Below, piece by piece: positions 997 to 24,027 of a stretch of DNA of 34,535 nucleotides (the stretch's first letter is position 1; each line of letters begins with the position of its first letter). The stretch spans positions 1 to 34,535 of IMG/VR virus record IMGVR_UViG_3300008050_000144. One strand, written 5' to 3'. The DNA is from a virus. Made by a program: the position numbers and the translations under genes. The notes below the pieces were generated by a model, which searched no databases, was not told the origin of the DNA, and saw only the letters and a program-made list of their open reading frames with translations.

Positions 997-1263
997 TTGA
1001 CTTACGAAGAACAATATCAAGAAGTCCACAAATTAGCTCAGTCCGCCGGATGGGCCATCCTCAAGCAAATGATGCAAGACGAATACGAAATCGCCTGCAA
1101 AAAACAAAATAGACCCGGCCCTAGACCGGACGATTACGAGTACATGCGCGGTGTTTTGCACTCAGCCGATCAATTAATGTCCATGCCGGATCGTGTCCTC
1201 AAACTTTTTGAGAACAATGCCCTTATCGAGTCAGCTTCCAATAAGGACGACAAGGTTCTGTAG
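997..1263 (+). CDS. Small hypothetical protein upstream of scaffold
   Basis: I place the start at the TTG at 997, which has a GGTAGGA-type ribosome binding site just upstream. The in-frame ATG at 898 lies inside the preceding gene, and the GTG at 970 has no visible Shine-Dalgarno sequence. The product is then 88 residues beginning (M)TYEEQYQEVHKLAQS. It is helical and charged, with no cysteine pairs beyond one Cys and no membrane segment. I do not recognise a family. Its position just before the scaffold and capsid genes suggests a head-assembly or packaging accessory role, which is inference. Confidence 0.6.
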   Translation: MTYEEQYQEVHKLAQSAGWAILKQMMQDEYEIACKKQNRPGPRPDDYEYMRGVLHSADQLMSMPDRVLKLFENNALIESASNKDDKVL

Positions 1264-1326
1264 CACATGCCACAACCAATATACACCACACAACTACCCC
1301 GCTAACGCCGGGTAAAGGAGACACAA

Positions 1327-2376
1327 ATGAAAGAACTCAATCCTGACGCATCCATCGTCGATGCCATTGCATCTCAACAGATGGGTGTTGACCCCGAACA
1401 AGTAGCCGCAACCCCTGACGCTGCCACCGGCATAGCTCAGACACCGTCTGACGCAACCGCGTCTCCAGAATCCCCGGCGGGGAAGGCCGCTGAGCAGCTC
1501 TCTCCCGTCACTGAGGACGACCGCGCCAACGCTGATCCTGTCGTTTTTAAGGTCAACATTAACGGCCAGGAACGTGAATTTACTGATGCGCAAATCCGTG
1601 GCACTTATGAACGCTACACTCACCTCAATCAAGCTCACGCCGATATGAAAGATTGGATTGATTACGGCAGGGCTATGAAGGCCGCCGCCGCCCAAAACGG
1701 CAAAGAAATAAATTACGCTGACTTGGCCAGCGAAACTCACAACGTGCTCAGCCGCGCCGTTCAGCATAATCCGCAAATGGGCAAGGGTGCCCAAGACAGC
1801 GCACCTGACGTGCCACAAGACGTCGCCCAATCCCTAGATCAATGGGAACAGGACAACGCTGTCGAACTCCCCCCTGGTTACAAAGAGGCCGGAGCACGAG
1901 TCTCTAGCGTTGAGCGCGCTGTGGCTGAGCTTGCCAATGTTGTCGGGCAGATCGCACAGGGTCAACAGGGCGTCACTGGTGCAGCCGAAGCGGTGCAGCA
2001 TGAGGCCAAACAAGAGGTGGCTAACGCTACCAAGCAGAGGATTGCCACTAACATCGATAATGCCCAGGCCAAGTTTGGTATTCAAGACGAAGAAGAGCCG
2101 CAGTTTATGGCATTTATGCAGACGAGAGGTTATACGCCCGAAGATTTTATTAGTCGCGAGCTGACGGAACAGGTCATGCAGGATTACACTAACGCCAAGA
2201 ACTCTCCTGAGTTCGCTCGTTTGCAAGGTCTTGCCGCGAAGCGCCAAGCCTTTACCGGCACTGTCGACGGTGCTCCGTCCGGTGAGGCCGGGGGGACTCC
2301 CAAACCGGCCCCCGATCAAGCTATCTTTGATGAAATGACTGAGATGGGCCTCAAAAGATTCGGCCCGCAAGCTTAA
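1327..2376 (+). CDS. Capsid scaffolding protein (putative)
   Basis: This is a 349-residue protein with a clear GGAG ribosome binding site (taaaggagacacaaATG). It has a disordered, acidic, Ala/Pro/Thr-rich N-terminus (residues 1-60). A long helical Gln/Glu/Ala-rich centre follows, including GQIAQGQQGVTGAAEAVQ at about 205-222. The C-terminus is Pro/Gly-rich and ends in a helix (FDEMTEMGLKRF). No enzyme motif is visible. Length, composition and position before the major capsid gene are typical of phage scaffolding proteins, whose sequences are poorly conserved. The call rests mainly on synteny. One oddity is that a second gene (the cupin protein) lies between this gene and the capsid gene. Confidence 0.7.
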   Translation: MKELNPDASIVDAIASQQMGVDPEQVAATPDAATGIAQTPSDATASPESPAGKAAEQLSPVTEDDRANADPVVFKVNINGQEREFTDAQIRGTYERYTHLNQAHADMKDWIDYGRAMKAAAAQNGKEINYADLASETHNVLSRAVQHNPQMGKGAQDSAPDVPQDVAQSLDQWEQDNAVELPPGYKEAGARVSSVERAVAELANVVGQIAQGQQGVTGAAEAVQHEAKQEVANATKQRIATNIDNAQAKFGIQDEEEPQFMAFMQTRGYTPEDFISRELTEQVMQDYTNAKNSPEFARLQGLAAKRQAFTGTVDGAPSGEAGGTPKPAPDQAIFDEMTEMGLKRFGPQA

Positions 2377-2400
2377 AGATAAATATATACGGAGACCGGT

Positions 2401-2973
2401 ATGCACCACGCAATAATCACCGACATGCTCGGTGAGCAGGACGCAGACGAGCTTGCTCAGTACGCTCATTTTATATTGTATTCTCAGCGCCCCCACCAAT
2501 TGTGTGTACCCGCACGCGCTCCTCTTCGCTACTGTGACGGGTTGCGCGGCATCGTCTTACACAGAGAGGGGCAGTTCCAAACCCAACTCTTTATTGTCGA
2601 CCCTGATAAAACAATCCCAGAACACCTTCACCCTACCGTAGATTCATATGAGGTCTATATGTATGGCATGACATTCACCAATGGCGACAGGCAGGTCGTC
2701 ACTGAGGAAGACGCCGTCAAGCCAGACGAATACGGTTTCCCCGTCCACCGCTACAAAATCATGCGCATTCGCCCTACTGACTGGCACGGCGGGACCGCCT
2801 CTAAAAATGGCGGTGCATTCATGTCTATCCAGCATTGGCTCAAGGGCCAACCGACCTCTATTGGCTTGGATTGGGACGTTGAAGAAAACGGTGAGGACCG
2901 TGGCGGTTATATGGGTAAAGGTCACGAGGGTGAAATTGACGAAATAAATTTAAAAACCGGGACGACAAATTAA
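2401..2973 (+). CDS. Cupin-fold metal-binding protein in the head module
   Basis: The product is 190 residues, with a GGAG ribosome binding site 9-10 bases before the ATG. It carries a recognisable cupin signature. Motif 1 is PEHLHPTVDSYEVYMYG, giving ligands H75, H77 and E84. Motif 2 is RIRPTDWHGG, giving H129. These are the four usual metal ligands of the cupin double-stranded beta-helix (established for the superfamily). The N-terminus and the acidic C-terminal tail (about 158-190) lie outside the core. The gene sits between scaffold and capsid genes, so the product could be a virion component, a capsid decoration or an enzyme acting on a small molecule or sugar. No substrate can be read from the sequence. 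The same frame stays open for 59 codons after the TAA stop. Confidence 0.75.
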   Translation: MHHAIITDMLGEQDADELAQYAHFILYSQRPHQLCVPARAPLRYCDGLRGIVLHREGQFQTQLFIVDPDKTIPEHLHPTVDSYEVYMYGMTFTNGDRQVVTEEDAVKPDEYGFPVHRYKIMRIRPTDWHGGTASKNGGAFMSIQHWLKGQPTSIGLDWDVEENGEDRGGYMGKGHEGEIDEINLKTGTTN

Positions 2974-3166
2974 CCCAATACCGGCTACACACGACTCCAA
3001 CAGACATTCTTTCCGCGTCTTGACCGCTTAACCGCCGTCGCACCAGCCGAAAGTCTTGATGTTACCGGCAACCGAGGCCCGCCAATCCGCGTTGATTTTT
3101 CCGCACTGGGTCAGACGAAGCCGTTGAACATTTTGATTTTAACCCCTTTTTAGGAGGATTTTTGAT
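2974..3166 (+). other. Gap before capsid gene with in-frame open extension of the cupin gene
   Basis: After the TAA at 2971-2973, the cupin reading frame continues without a stop for 59 codons to a TAG at 3151-3153. Codon choice looks like that of neighbouring genes and the segment contains FFPRLDRLTAVAPAESLDV. It has no ATG or GTG start in this frame and no internal ribosome binding site. The first base after the stop is C. Possible explanations are stop-codon readthrough, a recent nonsense mutation, or chance. The very strong capsid-gene ribosome binding site (AGGAGG) at 3152-3157 follows directly. Confidence 0.4.
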
Positions 3167-4348
3167 ATGCCAGCAGGCGTTCAAGGACTTCGGGGTACTG
3201 GTGAGTTTGACGCTGACCATCGCCCTAAAAACTACCGTGAGCTTTATACGCTCCTGGAACCCAATGGCTCCGCGCCGTTGAATGCTCTTCTGTCTATGAT
3301 GGGCACGCAAGCTACCGATGATCCTGAGTTCAAGCACTTCCGCGATGAGCTTCCCGATCGCACCCTGACGGTCAACAATGGAGCGGGTTATAATACATCA
3401 GCCACCTCTATTGCCGTTGACGCTGCGACTGAGATTGCTTTCTTCACGTCGGGCACCCTTGTTCAAAACACGGCCACTGGTGAAGTCATGCAGATCGACA
3501 CGGATGCTTCGGCTTCCCCGTTGACTGTGACTCGTAACATCGGCTCGACATCTTACAGCATTACCGACAACGACATTCTAGTTGCTATCGGTTATGCTGA
3601 CAAAGAGGGCGATACTTCACCGACCCCAATTGCGTGGGATGCGACCGTAGCATCGAACTATACGCAAATCTTCAAAACCCCCGTCTCTATCTCCGGTACA
3701 ATGCAGAATACTAATCTGCGGACTGGCTCCAAGGAGCAGGAGCTTCTGACCAAGGCTTTGAAGTTGCACATGTCCGATCTCGAACGGTCCATGTTCTTCG
3801 GCATTAAGGCCGAGGTTAACGGCTCAACCGCTCAACCGACTCGTTACACTGGGGGTCTGACCACCCAGATTACTAACGTAACCGATGCGGCCTCTGCCTT
3901 TACCACCGCCAACCAAGTGACGGAGAAAGAGTTCGATCGCTGGCTGGTCGAGACGGCGTTCTCCAAAGGCTCCAAGGAGCGTGTTTGCTTCGTAGGTGCC
4001 ACGGTGGCTGCCAACTTAATGGAAATCGCCAAGAACCGTTGGACGCCAACTTCTGTTGATGGTTCTTACGGCGTTAGCATGACCAAATATGCGACGTTCG
4101 CTGGCGATCTCATGGTTCATCTTCACCCGATGTTCCGTCAGGTTCCTGGGATGGCCGATGCCATGATCATGCTGGATATGCCTTATCTGAGCTATCGCTG
4201 TATGAAAAACCGCGACACGCAGTTGCAGCGGGATATTCACACCGCAGACTTCGACGGTGTGAAGCATCAATATCTCACTGAGTGCGGTCTGGAAATGACC
4301 CAGGCGCAGGTACACACATACCTCAAGAACTGGCAAACCGTCTCTTAA
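3167..4348 (+). CDS. Major capsid protein (DUF5309 / SU10-like HK97 fold)
   Basis: This 393-residue protein is preceded by a perfect AGGAGG ribosome binding site, as expected for the most abundant virion protein. The segment NYTQIFKTPVSISGTMQNTN at about residues 165-184, followed by a helical run with RTGSKEQELLTKALKLHMSDLERSMFFG, is characteristic of DUF5309-type major capsid proteins, which adopt the HK97 fold. Residues about 65-155 form a beta-rich Ser/Thr segment (including GYNTSATSIAVDAATEIAFF and TGEVMQIDTDASASPLTVT), probably an inserted domain on the capsid surface. The gene is followed by an intrinsic terminator, consistent with high-level expression of an mRNA ending here. Family assignment is by motif recall. 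Confidence 0.88.
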   Translation: MPAGVQGLRGTGEFDADHRPKNYRELYTLLEPNGSAPLNALLSMMGTQATDDPEFKHFRDELPDRTLTVNNGAGYNTSATSIAVDAATEIAFFTSGTLVQNTATGEVMQIDTDASASPLTVTRNIGSTSYSITDNDILVAIGYADKEGDTSPTPIAWDATVASNYTQIFKTPVSISGTMQNTNLRTGSKEQELLTKALKLHMSDLERSMFFGIKAEVNGSTAQPTRYTGGLTTQITNVTDAASAFTTANQVTEKEFDRWLVETAFSKGSKERVCFVGATVAANLMEIAKNRWTPTSVDGSYGVSMTKYATFAGDLMVHLHPMFRQVPGMADAMIMLDMPYLSYRCMKNRDTQLQRDIHTADFDGVKHQYLTECGLEMTQAQVHTYLKNWQTVS

Positions 4349-9190: not shown

Positions 9191-9621
9191 TTCGAGAGGC
9201 GACAATCCATGACGCTACCGCCCTTGTCGACCTTGGCCACGAACTCTTAAACGAGAGCCAGGACACGGCCAGATTTAGTGACAAGAGGGCACGTCAGACG
9301 ATCCTCCGGTACATAACAGACAAGAACAAAATCATATTTATTGACCAAGACGGTAGAGGGGCGATTCTCGCACACATAAGCCAATTTGATTTCTCAGACG
9401 AAACATACGCCTTTGAACAGTATTGGTTTGTTAAACAAGAAAGTCGGGGCGGGCCTACAGCCCTAAGACTCTATAAGGCATTCGAAGATTGGGCCAAAAA
9501 AAAAGGTGTGACTGATATACGCTTTGGGATCGGGACAGGAGTTAATCTTGCCGCCACAGAAAAATTATTAAAGCAGCTCGGCCACACAAAAATTGGCGGC
9601 TTTTATAAAAAGGAATTGTAA
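9187..9621 (+). CDS. GNAT-family N-acetyltransferase
   Basis: This 144-residue protein has the expected layout of a GNAT fold. The N-terminal strand and helix are MIREATIHDATALVDLGHELLNES. A central strand (YAFEQYWFVKQESRGGPTALRLYKAFEDWAKKKG) carries the 'RGGPTA..L' segment equivalent to the acetyl-CoA pyrophosphate-binding loop (about residues 90-97). The end is VTDIRFGIGTGVNLAATEKLLKQLGHTKIGGFYKKEL, the usual 'n..a...ye..GF......y.k' ending. The substrate is unknown. Genes of this type are seen among structural genes of other podoviruses, where their target is unclear. It starts within the stop of the upstream ejection-protein gene (ATGA) and is probably coupled to it. Confidence 0.82.
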   Translation: MIREATIHDATALVDLGHELLNESQDTARFSDKRARQTILRYITDKNKIIFIDQDGRGAILAHISQFDFSDETYAFEQYWFVKQESRGGPTALRLYKAFEDWAKKKGVTDIRFGIGTGVNLAATEKLLKQLGHTKIGGFYKKEL

Positions 9622-9622
9622 T

Positions 9623-11050
9623 ATGCTTTCTATCGCAGAGTTATTTGAAACAGAAAAAACCTATCTATGCTTTTGCGGCGAAGGCGAAGGCGAAAGCGGC
9701 GGCGAAAGCGAAGACGGCGGCGCAGCCTTCGACGCATGGGCAGACGCCACAGTGAATACCGCAGACGCCACAGTGAATACCGCAGACACCACTTCTACGG
9801 ATACCGCAGACGCCACAGTGAATACCGCAGACACCACTTCTACGGATACCGCAGACGCCACAGTGAATACCGCAGACACCACTTCTACGGATACCGCAGA
9901 CGGCGCTTGGGAATGGAACTCTCAGGGCGGATATAATTATCCAGGCGACGCCCAAAGCCCAACGGGTACAACAGCTTCGGCTGGTCAATTTCAAAATTAT
10001 AATGATGTTTCCACAGAGGCAGGGAAGGCAACCTGGGGAGCGCAGAATGACTACTTCAACAAATCCGTTGAGCCAGCTTTCGGTAGAATGCTTGGTCTAA
10101 ACCGCACTCAAGAAGAAATTGACAAGGACGTGACAGTTACGGCTGGTATGCTGGGTGGCTATCAGGGAAAAGACCTAAATAGATATGTAAATGCCATGAC
10201 GGACGCCGCTTACCGTAACTACACCCAAAACGCTATCGGCCCATATGCACAAGACCCAAACTTCGCTAAGAACAACCGGAGTATCCAGCCCTGGGTTGGC
10301 GCTAAAGAATATCTTGGTAAGGAACTCACCAATGTAATCGCGCCATTCAAGTCCGACCTACCAATGAGCACTAAACTTGGTTACGGGGCTAATCTGATAG
10401 GTAAGGCGGTGATGCCATCGTACTTCACCGTTGCGGGTGCGCTCGTTGATGGTGCTAATCGGGCGATGGGAATTGCCCCCGGTGCTGCAACATTTAACTC
10501 AATGGGTGTGCCGCCCAACGCTGAATTTACTGACCATGGGAATAATGTGTGGAGCGCCGAATACCCCGACTCGCTCAGCGGCACCTGGTCCAGGGGTTAT
10601 GTGACTGACCCCGACTTCAACCCCGACGCTTATTCTGTGGGCGGGCCAGGGACGATTTCTTATGCAACAGCCAATCAAGACAATCTAATAGCTATGGGCG
10701 GTTTAACCGGCGGACTTGCTGCCCTAACTCTTGGTAGTCCCCCCTATTCAACGAGCAATACCCTTACCGCAGGGGGCGCGTCTGACAGCGGCGACTCTGG
10801 TGGCATGGGTTCTTCGATCGCCAATTCTAATAATAATACATTTTCGTCCAATATTAGCGGCGACAGCCAGGGTGGTGTTCCAGAGTCGAACGCTCCAGCT
10901 ACTCCAAACCAACCACTCCCGGCTGGTGTAACATACGCTTTCCCGGTCAAGGAGCGCGAGTTTGGGACGACTAGCTATACAATTCCTGCAACAATAGATG
11001 ACTCAAAAAGGTTTGGTCGCAGACGCGGCCTTCTCGCTGGTCTTTACTAG
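9623..11050 (+). CDS. Internal virion-type protein with 15-residue tandem repeats
   Basis: The start is the ATG at 9623 with AAGGA 8-9 bases upstream. An in-frame ATG at 9593 would overlap the GNAT gene for no reason. The 475-residue product begins with a Cys-containing stretch (YLCFCGEGEGESGG) and a Gly/Glu/Asp-rich arm. The tandem repeat region at residues 40-91 has the unit ADATVNTADTTSTDT. Then comes a helical domain (YFNKSVEPAFGRMLGLNRTQEE, then YQGKDLNRYVNAMTDAAYRNY), and hydrophobic Gly-rich stretches (AVMPSYFTVAGALVDGANRAMG; LIAMGGLTGGLAALTLG). The C-terminal half is Ser/Asn-rich and ends RRRGLLAGLY. It lies between other candidate ejection proteins, so I call it a virion protein by context. 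No family was recognised. Confidence 0.6.
   Translation: MLSIAELFETEKTYLCFCGEGEGESGGESEDGGAAFDAWADATVNTADATVNTADTTSTDTADATVNTADTTSTDTADATVNTADTTSTDTADGAWEWNSQGGYNYPGDAQSPTGTTASAGQFQNYNDVSTEAGKATWGAQNDYFNKSVEPAFGRMLGLNRTQEEIDKDVTVTAGMLGGYQGKDLNRYVNAMTDAAYRNYTQNAIGPYAQDPNFAKNNRSIQPWVGAKEYLGKELTNVIAPFKSDLPMSTKLGYGANLIGKAVMPSYFTVAGALVDGANRAMGIAPGAATFNSMGVPPNAEFTDHGNNVWSAEYPDSLSGTWSRGYVTDPDFNPDAYSVGGPGTISYATANQDNLIAMGGLTGGLAALTLGSPPYSTSNTLTAGGASDSGDSGGMGSSIANSNNNTFSSNISGDSQGGVPESNAPATPNQPLPAGVTYAFPVKEREFGTTSYTIPATIDDSKRFGRRRGLLAGLY
9740..9895 (+). repeat. Coding tandem repeat, A-(A-B)x3
   Basis: Unit A (gcagacgccacagtgaatac + c, 21 bp) occurs at 9740-9760 and again at 9761-9781. It then alternates with unit B (24 bp, begins gcagacaccacttctacgg) as three 45-bp A-B units covering 9761-9895. 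The copies are identical at DNA level, indicating recent expansion. The units are multiples of 3, so copy-number change keeps the frame and only alters the length of an Ala/Thr/Asp-rich linker. Confidence 0.95.
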
Positions 11051-11059
11051 AGGTTTATC

Positions 11060-11905
11060 ATGGCACTAGGCGACGCGATTTCAAAAGGCGTAGACATTTA
11101 CAGCATCTTCGGTGGTGACTCCCAGATGGCGGATATCCTTGGCCTTGGCTCAGCCGCCTGGGGCGCATGGTCTGCCGGTGACGACGCTCAGAGGTCCGCC
11201 GATCTGTACGAGCAACAGCTCGCTGATCAACGTGCCGTAATTCAGAACGAGATGGGCTACCGTAACCTTGTGCGTGATCGCATGCTCGCCGAGACAGGCG
11301 GCTTACGCGAGTCACTCAGCGCTGCGGCTCAGAATCTTGGCCCTTATTCGCAGGGTCTCGATCCAAATCAATTCGAATTACGCGCCAACCAGATTATGGG
11401 CAACAACCTGCAAGCTCTTGATGCGGTAGTAAACCGCGTCAACTCAGAAAGCCGCGCCTCACTTTTGAACACCGGTCTCGCTGATGGCACCACCCACGAG
11501 GCAAACAGACAAGCCGAGATGATGGCCAGGTTCGCACCGCTGGTTAATAAAACCTTGGATGACGCTCGCACCCAGGCTCTTGCCGAATACACTGGTCTCA
11601 ACAAAGACATCGCCAAGAACCGCAAGAATGCTCTTGAGGAAATATCCTATATTTATGGCGAGCCTCTCGAATACGAAGCTAAACTCCTTGGCGATAACCC
11701 AAGCAGTGCAATGAATAGCCTGTCGTCGACCATGTCTGACTTCCAAACCTTCATGGACGAGAACGCAGCGGGTGCGAACACGGCATATGGCGACAGAATG
11801 AAAGCCGCCAAGGATCGTATCGCTGCTAGAAACACCAACACCAGCTTCTCCAGAAACGTCTCAGGTTTGACGAATGATGGATGGGGCGAGACGATGTACC
11901 TATAA
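11060..11905 (+). CDS. Internal virion protein (helical, ejection module)
   Basis: This 281-residue protein has an AGAGG ribosome binding site (tagaggtttatcATG). A short hydrophobic N-terminal part (DILGLGSAAWGAWSAGDDAQRSADLYEQQ) is followed by an almost wholly helical, Gln/Asn/Ala-rich body with NEMGYRNLVRDRMLAETGGL, NQIMGNNLQALDAVVNRVNS and MKAAKDRIAARN. The layout (hydrophobic start, then long amphipathic helices, and place before two larger virion proteins) resembles T7 gp14-type internal core proteins that cross the outer membrane first. This is an analogy, not a detected homology. The next gene begins 10 bases after the stop. Confidence 0.6.
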   Translation: MALGDAISKGVDIYSIFGGDSQMADILGLGSAAWGAWSAGDDAQRSADLYEQQLADQRAVIQNEMGYRNLVRDRMLAETGGLRESLSAAAQNLGPYSQGLDPNQFELRANQIMGNNLQALDAVVNRVNSESRASLLNTGLADGTTHEANRQAEMMARFAPLVNKTLDDARTQALAEYTGLNKDIAKNRKNALEEISYIYGEPLEYEAKLLGDNPSSAMNSLSSTMSDFQTFMDENAAGANTAYGDRMKAAKDRIAARNTNTSFSRNVSGLTNDGWGETMYL

Positions 11906-13830: not shown

Positions 13831-16800
13831 GTGGCATATGATGCAGGCAAGGGTCTTGACTGGTCTACCGACGCGGCCCCCGTAGAATCAGACTACACAA
13901 CCATACCCCCCAATGAAGTATTAAAGAGCGCACGCTTTGTGAACGATGCGGCTGAATACTATCGTGAGCGCGATGGTAAGGAGTTTGCGTCTCAGGAAGA
14001 TGTCATTGAATACTTCTTTAAGGACAGGCAGTGGCGCAATCTTAACTCCATTTCCGCAGGCATGGATGTCGCCAATTCATTCAATGACCCAGACGAGCAG
14101 AGATTGCGCCTTGGTCGTCTCCAAAAAGTCTACGAGAACCAGCCTAATTTTTGGAATCGTGAAGGCGGTTGGGAAGAGTTTGCTACCAACATCCTTCCCG
14201 CAGTCCTCCTTGACCCGGTAAACTTATTCGGCGCTGGCTCCGGTAAAATGGCCGCGACCGCAGCCATGACGGCAGCCCAACGCACTGCCGTCAGGCATGG
14301 CACGCAAATGCTTAGCGAAGGTGCGCTCAAGAAGGTGGGTATCAAGGCCGCCGCCAAGAAAGGTGCCTTGGTCGAGGGCGCGGTGAACGCGCCTATCGAA
14401 GCTGGCTTTGATGTTGCTGGCCAGGTGCGGGACATTCAGACAGGCATCCAAGACGAATATGATCCCACACGCACAGCCATCGCCTCTGGCCTTGGTACTT
14501 TAGCCGGTGGCGCACTCGGCGGTGCTTTCGGTGCTGGCGGTGGGATAGTGGCTAACGCAACGAAAGCCAGCCGCGCTGGTCGGAAGTTAGGCGAGGGCGA
14601 CATAGCCATTGAGGAGAATCTCGCATGGGATGCCCGCGATGAAGAGTTGGCAGACGAAGCTGCGCAGACAGCGCAGACCGCAGAAGAAGAAATGGCTGCT
14701 GTTGCTGATCTCCCCCCCTTGAACCCAACCCCAGAAGAACATCTCAGCAAGATCAATGAGGTCGAGTCTCGTCTGACTGAGGAACTTCAAGAGGTTCAAT
14801 CAGAACGCGGCCCGACCGACCCGGAAGTCCACGAAACACTGGTTGGTCACATTGATGCCATTCAACGTGTCAAACACTACCCGGAAATACGGGCAGACGC
14901 AGAAAGTAAACTTGCGGACCTCGACGCCTCTTCAAAAGAGGCTGGAGAGTTACGAAGGGCTGTCATTAGAGAGAACGCCCTTTATCGGGCAGTGCTTAAT
15001 GCGCCTGATGCCGCCACCGCCCGTGAGGTAATCGAACAACGCGCCATAGATGGAGCAGGCACTTCGAAAGAAAAGGCACCCAATGAAACTGTACGGACTG
15101 AGGAAACCGACGAGGTGGCACCCGCTGCCCCAGAAGCCGCGCAAGTTTTCGACGAACCCGATACTCCCAAGAACCTGGAAATCACAGACGAAGGCTTACA
15201 AAAGATTAATGACCGCGCCCTTGAACTAGCTAAAACAGAGCCGATCGATAGGGTAAACAGCACTCTTAAAAGCGAGTTTGGTGATGATGGTTTTCGCGCC
15301 TGGTCCGAGTGGTACGAGAAAAACCCGCCCACTATCAAAGAGGCCGAAGTAGTCGAGCGCACAGAAACAGACAACATCGACAACGTAATCACTGACCTCC
15401 AACGAGAGCGGACTAACGCCGTTCGTCGCGGAGACGAAAAAGCTGTCGTTACGGCAGACGAGCGCATCGCCGCCGCACACAGAACCCGTCGCGCCTCAAC
15501 CATCCCGACCATGCCGCCCAAGATCGAGACCAAGGCACCCCGTGCTGCCTACCTGCTTAATAACGGCCTGGACTCAGAGAAGATCGAGCGGCGCATTATG
15601 GAAGCGCGCAAGACTATTCCTAAAGGCAAGGGCAAGCAAACACGGTACCGCGACTCCGCTCGCCAAATCATCGAGCAAGCTTTCGCCGAGAGAGCCGCAC
15701 GCGAGTTCCTCCAATCAGCGATAGCCCGCATTAATGACCCTGACTATGAATTTAACCACGATGTAATCCGCGCCTACACCTTGGCCGATCCCGAAATGGC
15801 ACCCATGGAACATTTGGTTATGGATGCTCTGCGTGAGCACATTGCCACCGATGCTGTAGACTTTGTCGACACCTTAGAGGGTCTGGCTCCAGACGAAATG
15901 CGGATTGCTCTCGACCAGCGTTACGGAACGGGTATGACTGAGGTGGTTGAAAGCATGTTCGATCTTTTGTCCGGGCGGGCAGAAGACATCAAAGCCAATA
16001 TGTCAGTGACTCGCTGGAAAAACTTGCGGCCCGATCAGCGTGACCATATCAACGGCGAAGTAAAGAAACACGCCGACGCCCTGCGCCGTCTCAACCCCAA
16101 GATCGAAGATCATGTCCTCGATGCTGAGATCAGCCGCAAGCGCGAAGCACTCAAGGAAGAGCTGCGTATAGAAAACGCCGGTCTTATCCCCTCCCGTGGC
16201 TCCGGCGCAGAGGATAATCCCATCCTATCAGACGAGATCGTTACAGATAAAGAGGGCAATGCTCTCATCAACACCGAGCAGCTAGACCCCGTAACCGGCG
16301 AGCCGATGATCACCCTCCAACGTAAGACGGTGACTGGGCGGCAAGTCCTTACGCTACCGGGGGGCGTTAAAAAACTAGGTAAAATCCAAAGCGCTATTAA
16401 AGGTGCTCGCTACCGTGGCGTTGACGGTGAATACAGATATGACGGCGGCTACATCGGCAAACGCTTTGAGGATGCAGTAGAAGAAGTGCGTAGCTCCTAT
16501 GATGGTAAAGAAGGCTCAGCGATCCCTGTCAATGCCGACGATGTTCTCAAGTCCAGCCTGCCCAAGCGCCAAAAGAAGTTCCTCGCTGCCACATTATCAA
16601 ACGCTCAGAAGGAACTCGTCAAGGCACGCGCCGAAAGCACACAAATTTATGCCACGCGCTTACAGCTAAACGATACACCCGAAGCCAAGACCGGCACTAA
16701 AGTCCCATACACGGTCAGGGTTGGGGACGTTGTTGGCTTAAAGCAGCAAGGCAGAGCGCAAGCCAAAGTCGAAATGGCCGACGGCAAAGTAGTGGACAAT

Positions 16801-19800
16801 GCCGCAGCAGTAGAAGGCCAGAAGGTTAGGACCACAGAGGACACCATTCAGACGGCAGACGGCTACCGAGCCAGCCGAAACGATGCCCTATGGTATGACC
16901 CTGAGACTGGCCTCTTCTACCATGACCGTGACTTCCTTGGCTTTGAGCCTGGTGAAGTCCAGCAGGCCAAACTAGAAGACCTCATCCTAGAATATGGTGA
17001 GACCGGCTTTAATGAGACGGGTGGCCCCGCCGCCGCGAATACATTCTTAGGGAAGATCGACGTCCTAGAGCGTAGCTTTAATTCCGAGATCACTAACGAT
17101 GAGTTCGCCTTGGCTGTGGACAACATTCTCAAGCTTGAATCTGGGCTTGCCAATGACGCGGCTCGCATCGATGCGGTCATCGCTGAGTTCGCAGAAACAG
17201 GGGATGTTCAAAAGCTAGTCCAAGGTTTCAGAGAGGCCAACGGCGAAGTTCAGGCTGTCGGTAAAGTGGAGAAGATTGAGGTCGCCCGCGAGAACGCAGT
17301 CAAAAATGACGGCAAACCGCAGGGTGTTGGCGGACTGTCAGACGAGGACGTGGTTGCCCGCTTCGATAAAGTGGCAGACGACAACGGCTTAACGGGGCAA
17401 GAGTTGTCTGGTGCCATGCTTGGGCGTGGTGAAAAAGCCCATGTTGCCCTCGCTAATATGCTCAAAACTAAGGCTAAAAATCCTGAGAACTTCCAACGGG
17501 CCGCTGAACGCTATGACCGTCTTACCAAGGGGGAAGCTCCGTCAGACGAAGTCCTTGATCCCTCTATGGCACCTACCGTCGAGTATGTGTCCAAAGACGT
17601 GCCGGATACATCTAAGGTTGTTGACATCAACGATCTGTCCAAAATTAAAATCCCCGAAGGCACCTTCGGCGAGTTTGACAGCACTCTTAGAACGGCAGAG
17701 GACTTATACCGGACTATCCAGCGAGCTGAGAACGCCACCTGGCCAAAAGACTTTAATACTCTCAAAGAGCACACGGCCAATCTATCGACCCTGTACGCGG
17801 CTATGGAGTTGCTCGTGCCGCAGGGCGTAAAACTCCCCAATTCTAGTCGACGTACCGCAATCAATCGCCTCGATAAATTCATATTAAAAAAACACGGCGT
17901 CGAAACCATAGCCAATACCCGCGACATGTTGCGCCGTCTTGGTGGCGACCAGAGCGATGCGCCGACAATCAGACTCGCAGACGAGGATGCCTATCATGCG
18001 CCTACCGATGTCGACAATGCTAATAGCATTCTTCTCAATCCTGCTGGTGATGGCCGTGGGCCAATTCCAGATACTATTAAACTTGCGCACGAGATAGGTC
18101 ATTGGGCTTACACCAACATCCTCTCCAATCAGGATCGTCTGCATTTCTGGGGTAGCCTGGAAAAATACTTCGATGACATGGGTGACTTTGAAAACATTAA
18201 GGGTGGGATTGAGAACATGCTCCCCTTCATTGGCACCGGCCTAGAGGTCAACGCGATGCACTCCCCCCAAGAGTTCTTTGCCAACCAGTTTTCCCAGTGG
18301 CTGATGAGTCACAATAAGATTGCTGGAGGTGAAGTTTTCTGGAGGAAAGTTGCAAGATATGTCGAGAACATTATCAGCAACTTTACCTTCAAAGATAATG
18401 TCGACCCTGATCTTATTCCCCTCTTTGAAAAAATACTGCCCGACGACCCCAAGAGAGCAAACACATCCTTCCGCATGCCAGACGCTAATGAATGGGACGC
18501 CAAAGACCCGGCCCAGCGTATTGGTATGAATGTCCTGACGCAGTTAGAGGTGACACGCCTTGAGTTAGACGCGGCCATGTTGACAAACAACCCGGACACA
18601 ATACTACGCGCCCTCGATGAGGCGCGCCGTAAACTTTATGGCATGCTGTCTGACCGTAACGGTAAACGAGTTGAGTTCTTATACACTGCTGGCAAAAGTA
18701 AAAAGGCCAACAAAAAAACACACGGCCCATACGCCAGAGCTATGTGGGCTGCCCAGAAAAGGGTCAGTGATAAACTTACCGAATTGCAACAGAAGCGTGG
18801 CTTCTCAGACGAGGATGCTCTCAAGCACTCCCACATAGATGAAGAGGGATTACTCGTATCAGACGGAGAATATGCGATCCCAGTCGCTGACGATCAGTTT
18901 GATCAGCACATGATGGAGTTGACTGATCTGGCCAATGAAATGTTCATAGGCATTTCCGAGGGTCAGAAAGCGTCCTCCCTGTTCTTGAGCGGAGCGACTA
19001 AAGGGAAACTAGATATCGTTATTCGTGCCCCTGGCCGACGCAAAGCCAAGAAAGACCCGGTCGCTGCGAAGGTGGCGAAGCAAACTGTTAAGGCAAGGGC
19101 AAAAAAAACCAAGAAAGCCCGCCAGCAGAATGTGCGTAATACCAACACGGCCACTAAAGGGCGCAGCGGGAAGCCGACCAAGGCAGCGAAGACCGCAGGC
19201 ACCAAGTCGCCAAAAGATTATTCGTCTGGCGTTGAGATCGTCCGGGCTTGGCGGGCAGCCGGTGAGAAGAGCCAGTACGGCAAAGACCTAATGAATGAGT
19301 ACGTCAGGCGTACTCTTACCGAGATCGACCCCGTCGATGTTCCGCCGGGAGATATCCCGCCGGAGTTGTTTACGCTTAGCCTTGACGAAATGAAAACCGC
19401 GTTAGGGAAACTACTTGAGGGAGAGGGCAATGGTAAAGGTATCCGTGTTATTATGGCTGCGATGCAGCGGCGATACAGCCCCACTGTGGCCCGTCTTGAT
19501 ATTAAAGATGGTCGCGTGGCAAGTCTAATCAAGCGCGAGGCTGACGACAGTGCGGGCACATCCCCCCAGACAGGTTTCCCAGGCGGGACTCGTATGAATC
19601 AGGCTGAAACAGCCGCATGGTTTACGCACCGTGATAAGGACATACAGGCTACTCTGCAAACTCTCGTCTATCGCACGTTCAATATGATGGGGCGGACGTT
19701 AAGAAATGTTACGGAAAATACAGACTTTGTGGATATTGCAGACATCCAGAAAATTGCTGGCGTACCCATCTCGCCCCATGCGCGTGGCGTCACCGTTGAC

Positions 19801-22800
19801 CTTGGCAACATCCCGCCTGAGTTCAATGCGGTTCGTGGCCAATTGAGGCGTATCGCCGTAGGCATCACTAAGGGCACATCCTCTCCGATGGACTTGATGC
19901 ACGAAGTCGGGCACCTAGCCCTGCGCACAGCGATCTTTGATGACGCTGACATAGGCATTATGGTCGAAGCCTTCCGCAACGCGAGTGACCCCCTCGCCAA
20001 GAAAATCCGAGCAGATAACCCCAGCAAGACCATCCCCCACATGGCCGAAGAGTGGTTCGCCGAGGGCTGGTCACAATGGGTAACTGGTAAGATCGCCAAG
20101 GGTGACATCCCTGCAATAAGAGACGCCGATGGCGTCTTTATGGAGGGCGGCCTACAGATAAAGGGCAAGTTTTCCATGATGATCAATCGTCTGACGGAGA
20201 CCGTAGCCTATATGGTGAATGGTCTGTTGCGCCGCAAATCAGTCCGTCAAATGTATCGCCACATGACTCTCTACGGAGACATGTTTGAAGCCAGCCGCGT
20301 CACTAACAACTTGGTTAAAGCCGCACGCGCCGAAGAGGGCGGCGGTGTTGCACCCCACATGGCGAACATATACAAAAATAACCTGTTAAATAGAATGGCC
20401 CCCGAACGAGCCAAGCGCGTTCGCGCATTCGTCGGTGCCCGAAAAGACGAGAACCTCAAGAAATACCTGTGGTTTCACGGCACCCCCTTTGGCCAGGTGT
20501 TCGACCCGGCAGTCAATCCGATGGGCAGTGTCTATAAGTCCGGGACAGGGCTACATGGCGGCGGCTTCTATCTTACACGAGCAGAGGCTCTGGCCGACGC
20601 ATACAGCAGCACGGCTCGTGTCGAACAACTCCGTGGTGCCCTTCGCAGATTAGAAGTGTCAGACGAGAATATGGCCGAAGGCGGGTACATTATCAATCAA
20701 TTAGCTGGCGAAACCGGCGTCATTGCCCGTATCTCAGAAATCACGGAAGAGATCGAGAAGGTGAATTGGCATGCTTCGTCTGGCGCTCAATCATCCAAGA
20801 ATACTGACCAAGTCAATGTGAAAGCCACAGACCCATTCGGCTACCAGATCGAAGCGCCAGCCGAGCGTCTCGTCTACCTGGAAAAATCTTTGGCCGAGTC
20901 ACGCGACCACGAGAAGGCTCTTTGGGAAATGTTGCAAAAAATTGGCCTAGACCGCCAGCCCGAGACAGTGCCGTTCTTTGTCAATGACAGCAACATCTTT
21001 AACTTTGACCAAAGAACGACACTCACCGCCGACAGCCCAAGCGTGCGCGAAATCGTTGATGAACTCATTCACCGTGACCTCGCAGATACAGACGAAATCC
21101 TTACCGCGATCAATAATATCGAAGACGGCACTGATCTATACTTTAGCCTTATTGATTACGGTATGCGTGGGGACAATATGGAGGTGAAGCAGGCCCAACT
21201 TCGAGAGACCCTCGAAGCCCTTGGGTATGATGGTATTCGCACAAGTGAAACTGCTCCGTACAACGAAGCGATGCCGGAAGAATCTCTTGTTATTTGGAAC
21301 ACCAATAAGATTAAGCACGCTGATGAAGCCGAGATGTTTGATGGCGATGTTGATGACATCTTTTACGCCGACCACGCGGATCGTGTTGCCACCAACGGTG
21401 AACTCATGTCTGAGTGGATGGCGCAGCCGCACATCTTAGAAGGTGCTAACTTTCACCAACTCGCTATAGCTTTGGATCGTGCCAACGTGCCAAAACCTGT
21501 GCAGAAACTAATGCGCAAGCTGGCCCGCAAAGAAGAGATCGACGACGAGGCTCTACAGAGTGCTAAAAAATCAACCCATTTTGGTCTTCAAATAAAATCA
21601 AACGCACGTCGTTTGCGTGAGGGGGCCGGGGCTAACAATTTCGGTAATTGGCTTTCCCCGGATGACGGGGCAGGCTTCCACGAAAAGCATGCATCTGAGA
21701 TGGCCGAATTAGTCCAGCCTATCCATAGGATGCTGAATGCCCTGCCGGATGCAGGCGGCTTCGCTAAGCGGTGGGCGCAGCGTAATAAATTCTGGGGTCA
21801 AGTGAGCCAGCCAGCCAGCCATAACCGGATTGTGGCCGCTCTCAGACGAGGCAATATCGCCACACTTTCGTCTGAGGAGTACGCGGTAGCAGCGCATTTA
21901 CAGCAAGCGTTCCAAAAGGAGCTTAAAAGATTGCGCGATTCCGGCGTCAATATCGGTGAGATCAAAAACTATTTCCCTCAAGTGTGGGATAAAGACTTGA
22001 TCGAAGCCGACCCGAATAAATTTCGGTCAAAGATATTCCAATATATTAAGCGGGACGCCGTAAGAGAAGGTGCGGCCATCACAGATGCAGAGGCCGAAGC
22101 TGCGACGAACTCCATCTATCGTAGCCTGATGGATGAGAATGGTGTCTACCTCCCCGCCAACGTGGCAAAGAAGGGGGGTAAGTCTGACCACGAATATCAA
22201 AGAATGTTACGGTTTACGGCAGAAGACCTCGACGGGCTAGAGTTAGAGGAGTTCATGGTAAATGACCTGGCTGGTATCTCTATTAAATATTTTGACCAGA
22301 TGTCCCGTAAGCGGCAATTGGCTAAAAAATGGGGTTACGACGACCACGGGTATGAAGCCTACAAAATCGTGGCCGTGCAAGGTAAGCGCGGCATTGTTGA
22401 TTTATTGATGTCTCCCAAGGTTTTAAAAGTCGAGCGGTATATCCCATCCGTAGATGGCATGGAAACTGTGGCTATCGAGAGTGATAAAATTTTGCCGCTG
22501 CTCCCCCTGACAAAAAACCCTGTGGAAGCAGGTAAAATTGTCGATCGTCTGACGGAGCTTATGTCCAAAGAAGCTGTAAGCAAGCGCCAGGTGCTTGACG
22601 AGCTTCTTAAACTACACCCAAACGTAACCCTCGATTGGCGTATCCGCGCCGAGGCGATTGTTGAAGGCATGTACGATTTTGGAGTGAGCGGACGGGCTGT
22701 GCACTCAGACGAACTTCACTGGATGGATAATCTGATGAAGACAACTCAACGCCGCCCGTTCTTGACTGATCCATTCCAGCATAGCGCCAGTAAATTCTCA

Positions 22801-24027
22801 AAAAGAATGCGGAACTTCCAGTCTGTTACTCTCTTAGGATATACGACGCTCACATCTATTCCCGATATAGCCCTACCCGCTATCAGAAGCGGGAACCTGC
22901 CAGCCACTATCAAGGCGTGGAAGAAGTATGCGCAAGACCCGTCATACAGGGAAGCCATGCGCAATATTGGGGTATCTATTGAGGGCGTTCTGCATAATCG
23001 CATAGCGCACATTTACGGCGCTTCCGGCGGTAGGGGAGTTAATGCATTCTTCAACGCCACCCTGTTGTCCCCCTGGACACAACTCCAACGCGAGGTGTCT
23101 GGCCTCGTAGCTTTTGAGGCTTTTAAAGCAGAGCAGAACGCGGCTATCAAGGCTATCTCGAAGGGCAAGAAGGGCGTTCGCTATCGAACAGCCATGCGCT
23201 TTCTAAAACATTACGGCCTGGAGCACTACGCTGAGTTATCTGCCCCGACTTTGAATGATGTTAAGGCATTCCAAGATGATGACCAGATCAGATGGGCTAT
23301 CAACAAGTTCGTGAACGAAACAATCTTCGCACCTAGCGCAGAGCAAATTCCGCTGTGGGCGCAAACACCTTGGGGATCGCTGGCTTTCCAGCTCAAATCG
23401 TTCCCAATGATGTTTGGCCGTTTGAGCAAGCATGCCGTCAAGGAGTTCGGCCACGGCAACGTCACGCCAGCGCTCAATATGCTAACGGTTGGTGCCGGTC
23501 TGGGCATGGGAGCATTGGCCATTAAAGACGTTGTCCAGATGCGCGGCGGTGAGGATGAGAAGTCGGCGGACACACGCGATCGCAAGCTATCTAACTTCAT
23601 TGAGGCAGCAGAATCCCTTGGCCAGCCGGTTGATAAGGCTCTTGGCTGGTATCTCGATGGTTTTATGGCTATGGGCGGCCTGGGCCTAATGGGCGAACTT
23701 GTATTTAATACCGCCGCATCTATTGATAACGGCATCTGGGGTCACCAGCGTATTGCATCGCAGATCGCTGGGCCGTCTTTCGGCAGCGCTTTCGATGCCA
23801 TGAATGTGGCCAGCGGCGTTGTTGACGCAGCCGTAGGTGACGGCGGCTCTAATTCCAAAGAGCGCTCAGCCGCCCGAACCGCTGTATCACGAGTCCCATT
23901 GGTGGGGGGTAATAGGTTTTTGAGAGAAACTCTGACAGACACCATAGCCGGTAAGGCCGAGGAGAAGGGCGGTGGCTCTACAGGTGGCTATAAGAGCGGT
24001 GGCTATAAGGGTGGTGGATACAAATAA
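13831..24027 (+). CDS. Giant polyvalent virion protein: two metallopeptidase-like domains and an ART-like domain
   Basis: This is 3398 residues from a GTG start (GGAGA 6-10 bases upstream). Residues 1-240 end in a Gly/Ala-rich hydrophobic stretch. Residues 270-1400 are mostly charged helices and linkers. A first zinc-peptidase-like site is HEIGH at 1420-1424 with a downstream E1481 (QEFFANQFSQW). A Lys/Arg-rich histone-H1-like linker covers about 1733-1796. A second site is HEVGH at 2024-2028 with E2073/E2074 or E2078 (AEEWFAEGWSQW). An ADP-ribosyltransferase-like domain covers about 2211-2500 (LWFHGTP; GGGFYLT; LEALGYDGIR; EESLVIWNTNKIK). The C-terminal 900 residues resemble large-polyvalent-protein-associated regions, end with a hydrophobic segment near 3214-3235, and finish in GGYK repeats. 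By place and size it should be the terminal ejected protein, delivering effectors with the DNA. Enzyme activities are inferred from motifs. Confidence 0.8.
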   Translation: MAYDAGKGLDWSTDAAPVESDYTTIPPNEVLKSARFVNDAAEYYRERDGKEFASQEDVIEYFFKDRQWRNLNSISAGMDVANSFNDPDEQRLRLGRLQKVYENQPNFWNREGGWEEFATNILPAVLLDPVNLFGAGSGKMAATAAMTAAQRTAVRHGTQMLSEGALKKVGIKAAAKKGALVEGAVNAPIEAGFDVAGQVRDIQTGIQDEYDPTRTAIASGLGTLAGGALGGAFGAGGGIVANATKASRAGRKLGEGDIAIEENLAWDARDEELADEAAQTAQTAEEEMAAVADLPPLNPTPEEHLSKINEVESRLTEELQEVQSERGPTDPEVHETLVGHIDAIQRVKHYPEIRADAESKLADLDASSKEAGELRRAVIRENALYRAVLNAPDAATAREVIEQRAIDGAGTSKEKAPNETVRTEETDEVAPAAPEAAQVFDEPDTPKNLEITDEGLQKINDRALELAKTEPIDRVNSTLKSEFGDDGFRAWSEWYEKNPPTIKEAEVVERTETDNIDNVITDLQRERTNAVRRGDEKAVVTADERIAAAHRTRRASTIPTMPPKIETKAPRAAYLLNNGLDSEKIERRIMEARKTIPKGKGKQTRYRDSARQIIEQAFAERAAREFLQSAIARINDPDYEFNHDVIRAYTLADPEMAPMEHLVMDALREHIATDAVDFVDTLEGLAPDEMRIALDQRYGTGMTEVVESMFDLLSGRAEDIKANMSVTRWKNLRPDQRDHINGEVKKHADALRRLNPKIEDHVLDAEISRKREALKEELRIENAGLIPSRGSGAEDNPILSDEIVTDKEGNALINTEQLDPVTGEPMITLQRKTVTGRQVLTLPGGVKKLGKIQSAIKGARYRGVDGEYRYDGGYIGKRFEDAVEEVRSSYDGKEGSAIPVNADDVLKSSLPKRQKKFLAATLSNAQKELVKARAESTQIYATRLQLNDTPEAKTGTKVPYTVRVGDVVGLKQQGRAQAKVEMADGKVVDNAAAVEGQKVRTTEDTIQTADGYRASRNDALWYDPETGLFYHDRDFLGFEPGEVQQAKLEDLILEYGETGFNETGGPAAANTFLGKIDVLERSFNSEITNDEFALAVDNILKLESGLANDAARIDAVIAEFAETGDVQKLVQGFREANGEVQAVGKVEKIEVARENAVKNDGKPQGVGGLSDEDVVARFDKVADDNGLTGQELSGAMLGRGEKAHVALANMLKTKAKNPENFQRAAERYDRLTKGEAPSDEVLDPSMAPTVEYVSKDVPDTSKVVDINDLSKIKIPEGTFGEFDSTLRTAEDLYRTIQRAENATWPKDFNTLKEHTANLSTLYAAMELLVPQGVKLPNSSRRTAINRLDKFILKKHGVETIANTRDMLRRLGGDQSDAPTIRLADEDAYHAPTDVDNANSILLNPAGDGRGPIPDTIKLAHEIGHWAYTNILSNQDRLHFWGSLEKYFDDMGDFENIKGGIENMLPFIGTGLEVNAMHSPQEFFANQFSQWLMSHNKIAGGEVFWRKVARYVENIISNFTFKDNVDPDLIPLFEKILPDDPKRANTSFRMPDANEWDAKDPAQRIGMNVLTQLEVTRLELDAAMLTNNPDTILRALDEARRKLYGMLSDRNGKRVEFLYTAGKSKKANKKTHGPYARAMWAAQKRVSDKLTELQQKRGFSDEDALKHSHIDEEGLLVSDGEYAIPVADDQFDQHMMELTDLANEMFIGISEGQKASSLFLSGATKGKLDIVIRAPGRRKAKKDPVAAKVAKQTVKARAKKTKKARQQNVRNTNTATKGRSGKPTKAAKTAGTKSPKDYSSGVEIVRAWRAAGEKSQYGKDLMNEYVRRTLTEIDPVDVPPGDIPPELFTLSLDEMKTALGKLLEGEGNGKGIRVIMAAMQRRYSPTVARLDIKDGRVASLIKREADDSAGTSPQTGFPGGTRMNQAETAAWFTHRDKDIQATLQTLVYRTFNMMGRTLRNVTENTDFVDIADIQKIAGVPISPHARGVTVDLGNIPPEFNAVRGQLRRIAVGITKGTSSPMDLMHEVGHLALRTAIFDDADIGIMVEAFRNASDPLAKKIRADNPSKTIPHMAEEWFAEGWSQWVTGKIAKGDIPAIRDADGVFMEGGLQIKGKFSMMINRLTETVAYMVNGLLRRKSVRQMYRHMTLYGDMFEASRVTNNLVKAARAEEGGGVAPHMANIYKNNLLNRMAPERAKRVRAFVGARKDENLKKYLWFHGTPFGQVFDPAVNPMGSVYKSGTGLHGGGFYLTRAEALADAYSSTARVEQLRGALRRLEVSDENMAEGGYIINQLAGETGVIARISEITEEIEKVNWHASSGAQSSKNTDQVNVKATDPFGYQIEAPAERLVYLEKSLAESRDHEKALWEMLQKIGLDRQPETVPFFVNDSNIFNFDQRTTLTADSPSVREIVDELIHRDLADTDEILTAINNIEDGTDLYFSLIDYGMRGDNMEVKQAQLRETLEALGYDGIRTSETAPYNEAMPEESLVIWNTNKIKHADEAEMFDGDVDDIFYADHADRVATNGELMSEWMAQPHILEGANFHQLAIALDRANVPKPVQKLMRKLARKEEIDDEALQSAKKSTHFGLQIKSNARRLREGAGANNFGNWLSPDDGAGFHEKHASEMAELVQPIHRMLNALPDAGGFAKRWAQRNKFWGQVSQPASHNRIVAALRRGNIATLSSEEYAVAAHLQQAFQKELKRLRDSGVNIGEIKNYFPQVWDKDLIEADPNKFRSKIFQYIKRDAVREGAAITDAEAEAATNSIYRSLMDENGVYLPANVAKKGGKSDHEYQRMLRFTAEDLDGLELEEFMVNDLAGISIKYFDQMSRKRQLAKKWGYDDHGYEAYKIVAVQGKRGIVDLLMSPKVLKVERYIPSVDGMETVAIESDKILPLLPLTKNPVEAGKIVDRLTELMSKEAVSKRQVLDELLKLHPNVTLDWRIRAEAIVEGMYDFGVSGRAVHSDELHWMDNLMKTTQRRPFLTDPFQHSASKFSKRMRNFQSVTLLGYTTLTSIPDIALPAIRSGNLPATIKAWKKYAQDPSYREAMRNIGVSIEGVLHNRIAHIYGASGGRGVNAFFNATLLSPWTQLQREVSGLVAFEAFKAEQNAAIKAISKGKKGVRYRTAMRFLKHYGLEHYAELSAPTLNDVKAFQDDDQIRWAINKFVNETIFAPSAEQIPLWAQTPWGSLAFQLKSFPMMFGRLSKHAVKEFGHGNVTPALNMLTVGAGLGMGALAIKDVVQMRGGEDEKSADTRDRKLSNFIEAAESLGQPVDKALGWYLDGFMAMGGLGLMGELVFNTAASIDNGIWGHQRIASQIAGPSFGSAFDAMNVASGVVDAAVGDGGSNSKERSAARTAVSRVPLVGGNRFLRETLTDTIAGKAEEKGGGSTGGYKSGGYKGGGYK

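Follow-up and report, generated by a model that had tools for sequence, protein, structure and literature searches.

A predicted cupin metalloprotein of a largely viral family, probably carried as cargo between the scaffold and capsid genes of a phage

The viral record IMGVR_UViG_3300008050_000144 (34,535 nucleotides in all, hereafter the window) encodes a predicted cupin between its scaffold and capsid genes. We propose that this gene is probably cargo, and that its product is a virus-restricted, single-domain cupin metalloprotein that would act as a small-molecule enzyme rather than as part of the virion. The evidence comes from the modelled fold and its conserved metal site, from the distribution of the family, and from the other genes that occupy the same interval in T7-like phages.

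Genetic organization

As summarized in Table 1, the cupin ORF is flanked by two longer ORFs and begins 24 nt past the stop of the upstream one, which encodes 349 aa. It is a real gene. A read-through or otherwise longer product was considered and dropped: the frame continues for 59 codons past the cupin stop without a further stop, which in 2000 shuffles is expected by chance with P 0.16 in-frame and 0.69 in any frame, and the 58-aa stretch had no homologues in phage records searched by tblastn. A scan of window positions 1200-3300 found no sigma-70-type promoter and no coding-strand terminator, and the same scan was likewise empty for the scaffold-capsid interval of Roseobacter phage CRP-810. 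Co-transcription of the cupin gene with the head genes is plausible, with late expression judged from its position.

Table 1. Features of the cupin locus in the window.
Feature	Position	Strand	Basis
Putative scaffolding protein gene, 349 aa	1327..2376	+	Place and homology only
24-nt spacer with Shine-Dalgarno-like GGAG, 5' of the cupin ATG	2377..2400	+	Read from sequence
Cupin (predicted metalloprotein) gene	2401..2973	+	ORF, ATG start, 190 aa; AF2 model; PDB cupin matches; family alignment
Ligand codons of the cupin	H75 2623-2625, H77 2629-2631, E84 2650-2652, H129 2785-2787	+	
193-nt leader from the cupin to the capsid gene	2974..3166	+	
Major capsid protein gene, 393 aa	3167..4348	+	PF17236 SU10_MCP E 2.3e-39; phrog_1328 E 3.6e-33

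Judged by its profile matches, the downstream gene is a capsid gene of the SU10 type; its product is 59% identical to the major capsid protein of CRP-810. The 349-aa protein matches no family in PHROGs or Pfam. Its counterpart in CRP-810, gp46 (34% identity), lies directly 5' of the capsid gene of that phage, and homologues precede the capsid gene in 76 of 82 loci, the other six having no scaffold match. We call it a scaffold because of this position of its homologues. The initial annotation had placed the cupin gene between scaffold and capsid genes, and this placement stands, with the scaffold label given by place and homology. The window phage appears to be related to marine Roseobacter phages, the word marine being taken from its cyanophage and Roseobacter-phage kin. 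Elsewhere in the window, an ORF at 9593-11050 contains, close to its N-terminus, a repeated stretch resembling TADATVNTADTTSTD, and one ORF alone (13831-24027; GTG start, 3398 aa) takes up nearly one third of the record.

Predicted fold and metal site

An AF2 model of the window protein, built from a 47-row alignment, is a cupin barrel with a pLDDT of 94.0 and a pTM of 0.89; it supersedes a poor earlier model built from seven rows (pLDDT 65.7). Foldseek returns 346 matches in the PDB at E ≤ 0.001, the best being 7zvy_B (8.1e-07), and those listed are, we take it, cupins or enzymes recognised as having the cupin fold. In the VIA comparison, the phosphomannose isomerase 7zvy_A is matched with a Z of 10.4 (rmsd 2.4, 107 residues aligned), with many cupins tied within 1 Z. 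Helices at residues 17-27 and 173-186 of the model are additional N- and C-terminal parts of the family.

Conservation is concentrated at the predicted metal site and around it. H75, H77, H129, Q60, Q144 and W146 are invariant in all 47 family rows, while E84, D81, S82, S142 and R55 are each kept in 46. In the family, motif 1 has the spacing HxHx6E, against the shorter textbook cupin spacing of HxHx3-4E. The initial annotation had named H75, H77, E84 and H129 as the ligands; the translation, counted and re-indexed, has them at these positions. Its proposal that the protein is a cupin is likewise borne out, both by the double-stranded beta-helix that the model predicts and by the conservation of the three His and the Glu across the family. 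With a modelled barrel and the HxH...E/H ligands together, the window protein is best described as a member of the cupin superfamily (DSBH). From strand alternation, not coordinates, it seems that Q60, Q/E62, S82, E84, H129, F140, S142, Q144 and W146 share one face, presumably the inward one. Purifying selection on family members is shown by codon comparisons: dN/dS lies between 0.03 and 0.25 in nine of ten close pairs of relatives, with saturation in the remaining pair (L064/L079). A conserved metal site alone, however, is not proof of catalysis.

Distribution of the family

Scanning viral contigs with the single protein retrieved six relatives. With the seven-row alignment, 376 relatives were found among 499 pattern matches in viral contigs, of which the best 80 were retained, and four among 60 pattern matches in genome contigs; one of the two patterns differed between these scans. 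In 50,697 phage records, tblastn found nothing with the window cupin or with five further members as queries (L015, L005, L081, L215, L265). Profile searches of three classes found no member beyond the seed genome of each class (0/384, 0/241 and 0/368 genomes). On these counts the family appears to be nearly confined to viruses, with a cellular source possible beyond the three classes and 993 genomes sampled. The homologues in bacterial assemblies have surroundings of their own. On one bacterial chromosome (L096), the cupin lies, by reading, among phage tail-like genes. The other three (L093-L095) come from assembled genomes, where their contigs measure 4.3-20 kb and are possibly stray phage DNA. 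In one of these, from an alphaproteobacterial assembly (L094:5622-7496), the cupin is followed by a protein with TPR and sulfotransferase parts (PF13469, E 7e-41).

Reference collections do not cover the family. Pfam has no family of its own for the cupin; PHROGs gives no significant family, the best single match being 0.0047 for one of the 47 members; and NCBIfam has no own family either, with one of 47 members matching TIGR04366 cupin_WbuC at 0.0033. None of the 47 members matches an anti-phage defence family of PADLOC at E ≤ 0.01. A predicted viral protein in BFVD, D6PF24, is 43% identical to the window protein over 166 columns (Foldseek E 2.3e-20, TM 0.80), and is apparently a family member already in UniProt, where it has no function attached. 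In the open-access PMC literature, no paper was recognised as dealing with the family; one article describes cupin-like proteins in jumbo-phage clusters (PMC7824862). The remark in the initial annotation that no function has been named for a cupin at this place still stands.

The window protein is 25-46% identical to its kin and sits on a long branch (1.26) of a quick tree of 105 rows. This tree derives from 174 ORFs in 172 loci, among which some contigs were fetched repeatedly. Rows covering 110 profile positions or fewer were excluded, as were near copies (97% identity), and the tree omits L097 and the repeat copies L001, L066 and L098-L102.

The scaffold-capsid interval as a cargo site

Within its own clade the window is exceptional. 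Of 76 clade loci (42 of them distinct at 95% capsid identity), it is the only one with a cupin between the scaffold and capsid genes, and its scaffold-capsid gap measures 790 nt against 148-521 nt in the other 75. A profile search of 44 clade records, out of 81 available and possibly including fragments, found no cupin anywhere. Several loci of the clade (L157-L163, L172, L173) have a gap of 384-385 nt with short ORFs (68-79 aa) on the plus strand; these could represent alternative occupants of the interval.

T7-like phages, which are unrelated to the window phage, present a different picture. In Prochlorococcus phage P-SSP7 (NC_006882), hliP and psbA lie between the scaffold and capsid genes. 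Two T7-like contigs carry the cupin beside the same pair of accessory genes, in the order portal, scaffold, cupin, hli, psbA, capsid, gp11, gp12 (L215) or portal, scaffold, hli, psbA, cupin, capsid (L265), so that the cupin resembles the P-SSP7 cargo in being an accessory gene between gp9 and gp10. A third contig (L060) starts inside the scaffold gene, the end of which is 43% identical to P-SSP7 gp9, and continues with the cupin, an 80-aa ORF and a gp10A-like capsid gene (E 8.2e-89). A scaffold gene stands immediately 5' of the cupin in seven more (L217, L219, L220, L199, L075, L082, L089). The T7 scaffold family PF05396 scores above its cut-off in all ten T7-like contigs with this arrangement; counting every contig with the arrangement, four of 11 reach the capsid gene and the others end earlier. 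In a cyanopodovirus survey, accessory metabolic genes are described as highly syntenic, one hli excepted (PMC4646655).

The initial annotation had considered scaffold and capsid genes to be normally adjacent. This describes the window clade, where 75 of 76 loci lack the cupin, but not T7-like cyanophages such as P-SSP7. The cupin occupies the interval that carries hliP and psbA, an established place for cargo amid late genes. The arrangement was probably reached more than once, since its presence changes five times on the 105-row tree and at least three of these changes are forced by well-supported branches. In one respect the cupin is unlike its neighbors: close host homologues exist for hli and psbA, whereas it has almost no cellular homologues.

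Family members also occur at many other sites, among them T4-like loci. Reading of translations places the cupin in tail modules (L007 and the L030 group), between tail-tube-like genes (L063), next to a DNA polymerase gene (L005, L006) and upstream of scaffold and capsid genes (L002/L003). Three cupins that are 88-95% identical to that of L060 instead precede a terminase-like gene (L103-L105), and the gene therefore moves between sites. Neighbor scans covered 72 of 114 upstream and 78 of 123 downstream genes; among the first 25 families of each are endolysins (phrog_894 and phrog_28234, six members each), DNA polymerase, primase, head scaffolding, terminase and exonuclease. These neighbors are too diverse for one pathway, and an attempt to derive function from them was dropped. 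Such a scatter over sites is the behavior of a cargo gene and unlike that expected of decoration proteins. Because hli and psbA occupy the scaffold-capsid interval and relatives of the cupin lie elsewhere, we regard this place as a cargo slot that implies no role in the capsid.

Three of the contigs have further features. A tandem pair of cupins lies 3' of a primase-like gene in L064:4995-5940 and L079:4995-5940, the second copies forming a long separate branch. On another cupin contig, ORFs that by eye are like IMP dehydrogenase and adenylosuccinate synthetase (L117:6423-7529, 10709-11701) may hint at changed purine metabolism. Upstream of the cupin in L054:44-1175 stand two ORFs (199 and 184 aa) that look like paralogues; neither has a Pfam match.

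Alternative assignments

The initial annotation suggested, as one possibility, a capsid decoration protein with a cupin fold, which the position between scaffold and capsid genes, recurring in other phages, would favor. Such a protein, or one for head completion, would attach to either face of the SU10-type shell and stabilize it, and beta-helix barrels can indeed serve structurally. We consider this quite unlikely. The gene is missing from nearly every locus with a homologous capsid protein, and the family is seen with T7-type (gp10A), SU10-type and other capsids as well as far from head genes, in lysis, tail, terminase and replication modules; moreover, a purely structural barrel would have no need of invariant metal ligands and pocket residues. 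Recent capture of a host metabolic gene, which would make the cupin an auxiliary metabolic gene strictly speaking, would account for a place shared with hli and psbA and for the four homologues in bacterial assemblies. It is nevertheless improbable as well, given 0/993 genomes of the three classes sampled with a member besides the seeds, the phage tail-like genes around the chromosomal copy and the possibly phage-derived short contigs of the other three.

Among enzymes, a thiol dioxygenase of the PCO/ADO or cysteine dioxygenase (CDO) kind, which would oxidise thiols, either free or N-terminal, in the infected cell, has the most matches in its favor. PCO_ADO (PF07847) is the commonest Pfam match of the family (42 of 47 members at E ≤ 1, best 1.4e-5), and plant cysteine oxidases are the best PDB sequence matches (E 0.0089), with an IPxHxHP stretch that aligns ungapped. 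The similarity is limited to about 50 residues, and the window protein scores 12.4 bits against PF07847, below the cut-off of 27. PCO/ADO enzymes have a 3-His site that lacks an acidic fourth ligand, and PCO2 and PCO5 have Ser where 46 of 47 family members have E84; this Glu and the sub-threshold score speak against a PCO/ADO assignment. After the third His, the family reads S-x-Q-x-W, against S-x-N/H-x-Y in the bacterial CDO proteins L267 and L268 and the S-x-H-x-Y triad of cysteine dioxygenases (PF05995). With S142 kept in 46 rows and Q144 and W146 in all 47, that assignment is disfavored as well, and a thiol dioxygenase of either kind is unlikely. DMSP lyase, or another marine sulphur or organic-acid cupin carried by the phage, is the least probable of these alternatives. 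It is recommended by matches to PF16867 in 20 of 47 members (E ≤ 1, best 0.0017) and by DddK in the VIA list (Z 9.5, rmsd 3.6, 114 aligned), a metal cupin with a similar barrel. However, the HxH..E spacing of these proteins differs from that of the family, and where PF16867 proteins have E-x-Y in motif 1, position 86 of the family is Tyr in only 10 of 47 members and Phe in 26, which speaks against the assignment. The hhalign probabilities of 42.6 for PCO/ADO, 27 for DMSP lyase and 0.5 for CDO are superfamily-level signals; the reference loci that passed selection were six of six, 14 of 15 and two of three, respectively.

The best fold matches are single-domain metal cupins: the archaeal phosphomannose isomerase 7zvy, TM1459 (8awn, Foldseek E 1.1e-06) and KdgF (5fpz, VIA Z 9.7). 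Their VIA rows have tied scores and show 6-17% identity, and the extra termini and HxHx6E spacing set the family apart from this type. Derivation of a function from the fold was dropped, as neither Foldseek nor VIA singles out a reaction: both list generic cupins, and the scores are tied. Because the marker features of thiol dioxygenases are absent, the sequences lean slightly towards chemistry of the non-oxidative isomerase or lyase type.

Proposed role

For the cargo enzyme that we favor, the following course may be envisaged. The lineage of the window would have inserted the cupin gene into its scaffold-capsid interval, where the gene is presumably read together with the late head genes. 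The predicted product would bind one divalent metal inside the barrel through H75, H77, E84 and H129, beside a predicted polar pocket formed by Q60, Q/E62, S82, S142, Q144 and W146, with R55 at its edge. Late in infection it would then be a soluble enzyme of the infected cell with a small molecule as its substrate, an infection-time helper like the products of hli and psbA. In this scheme, metal occupancy, pocket geometry, catalysis and expression timing are all inferred. Of the two proposals in the initial annotation, a metal enzyme is thus the favored one; its further suggestion that the enzyme acts while the head is built was drawn from the position of the gene alone, which a cargo slot explains better.

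A broader reading can be offered more tentatively, at somewhat less than even probability. The cupins may form a virus-specific metalloenzyme family that has no close cellular source and has been loaded repeatedly into the slots of unrelated phages, in cyanophages beside photosynthesis genes, for the sake of useful chemistry that is independent of the host. During infection they might, for example, remove some widespread metabolite or signal molecule or convert it.

The odd position of the gene becomes an ordinary one, that of a cargo slot, and the single oddity becomes a family: a conserved metal-site protein of many uncultured phages, not covered by PHROGs, NCBIfam or the phage records tested. 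As a compact and expressible target, it is suited to a direct search for substrates. If the protein is an enzyme, phages with very different hosts would share a need for its reaction, yet this version of it is seldom encoded by cells.
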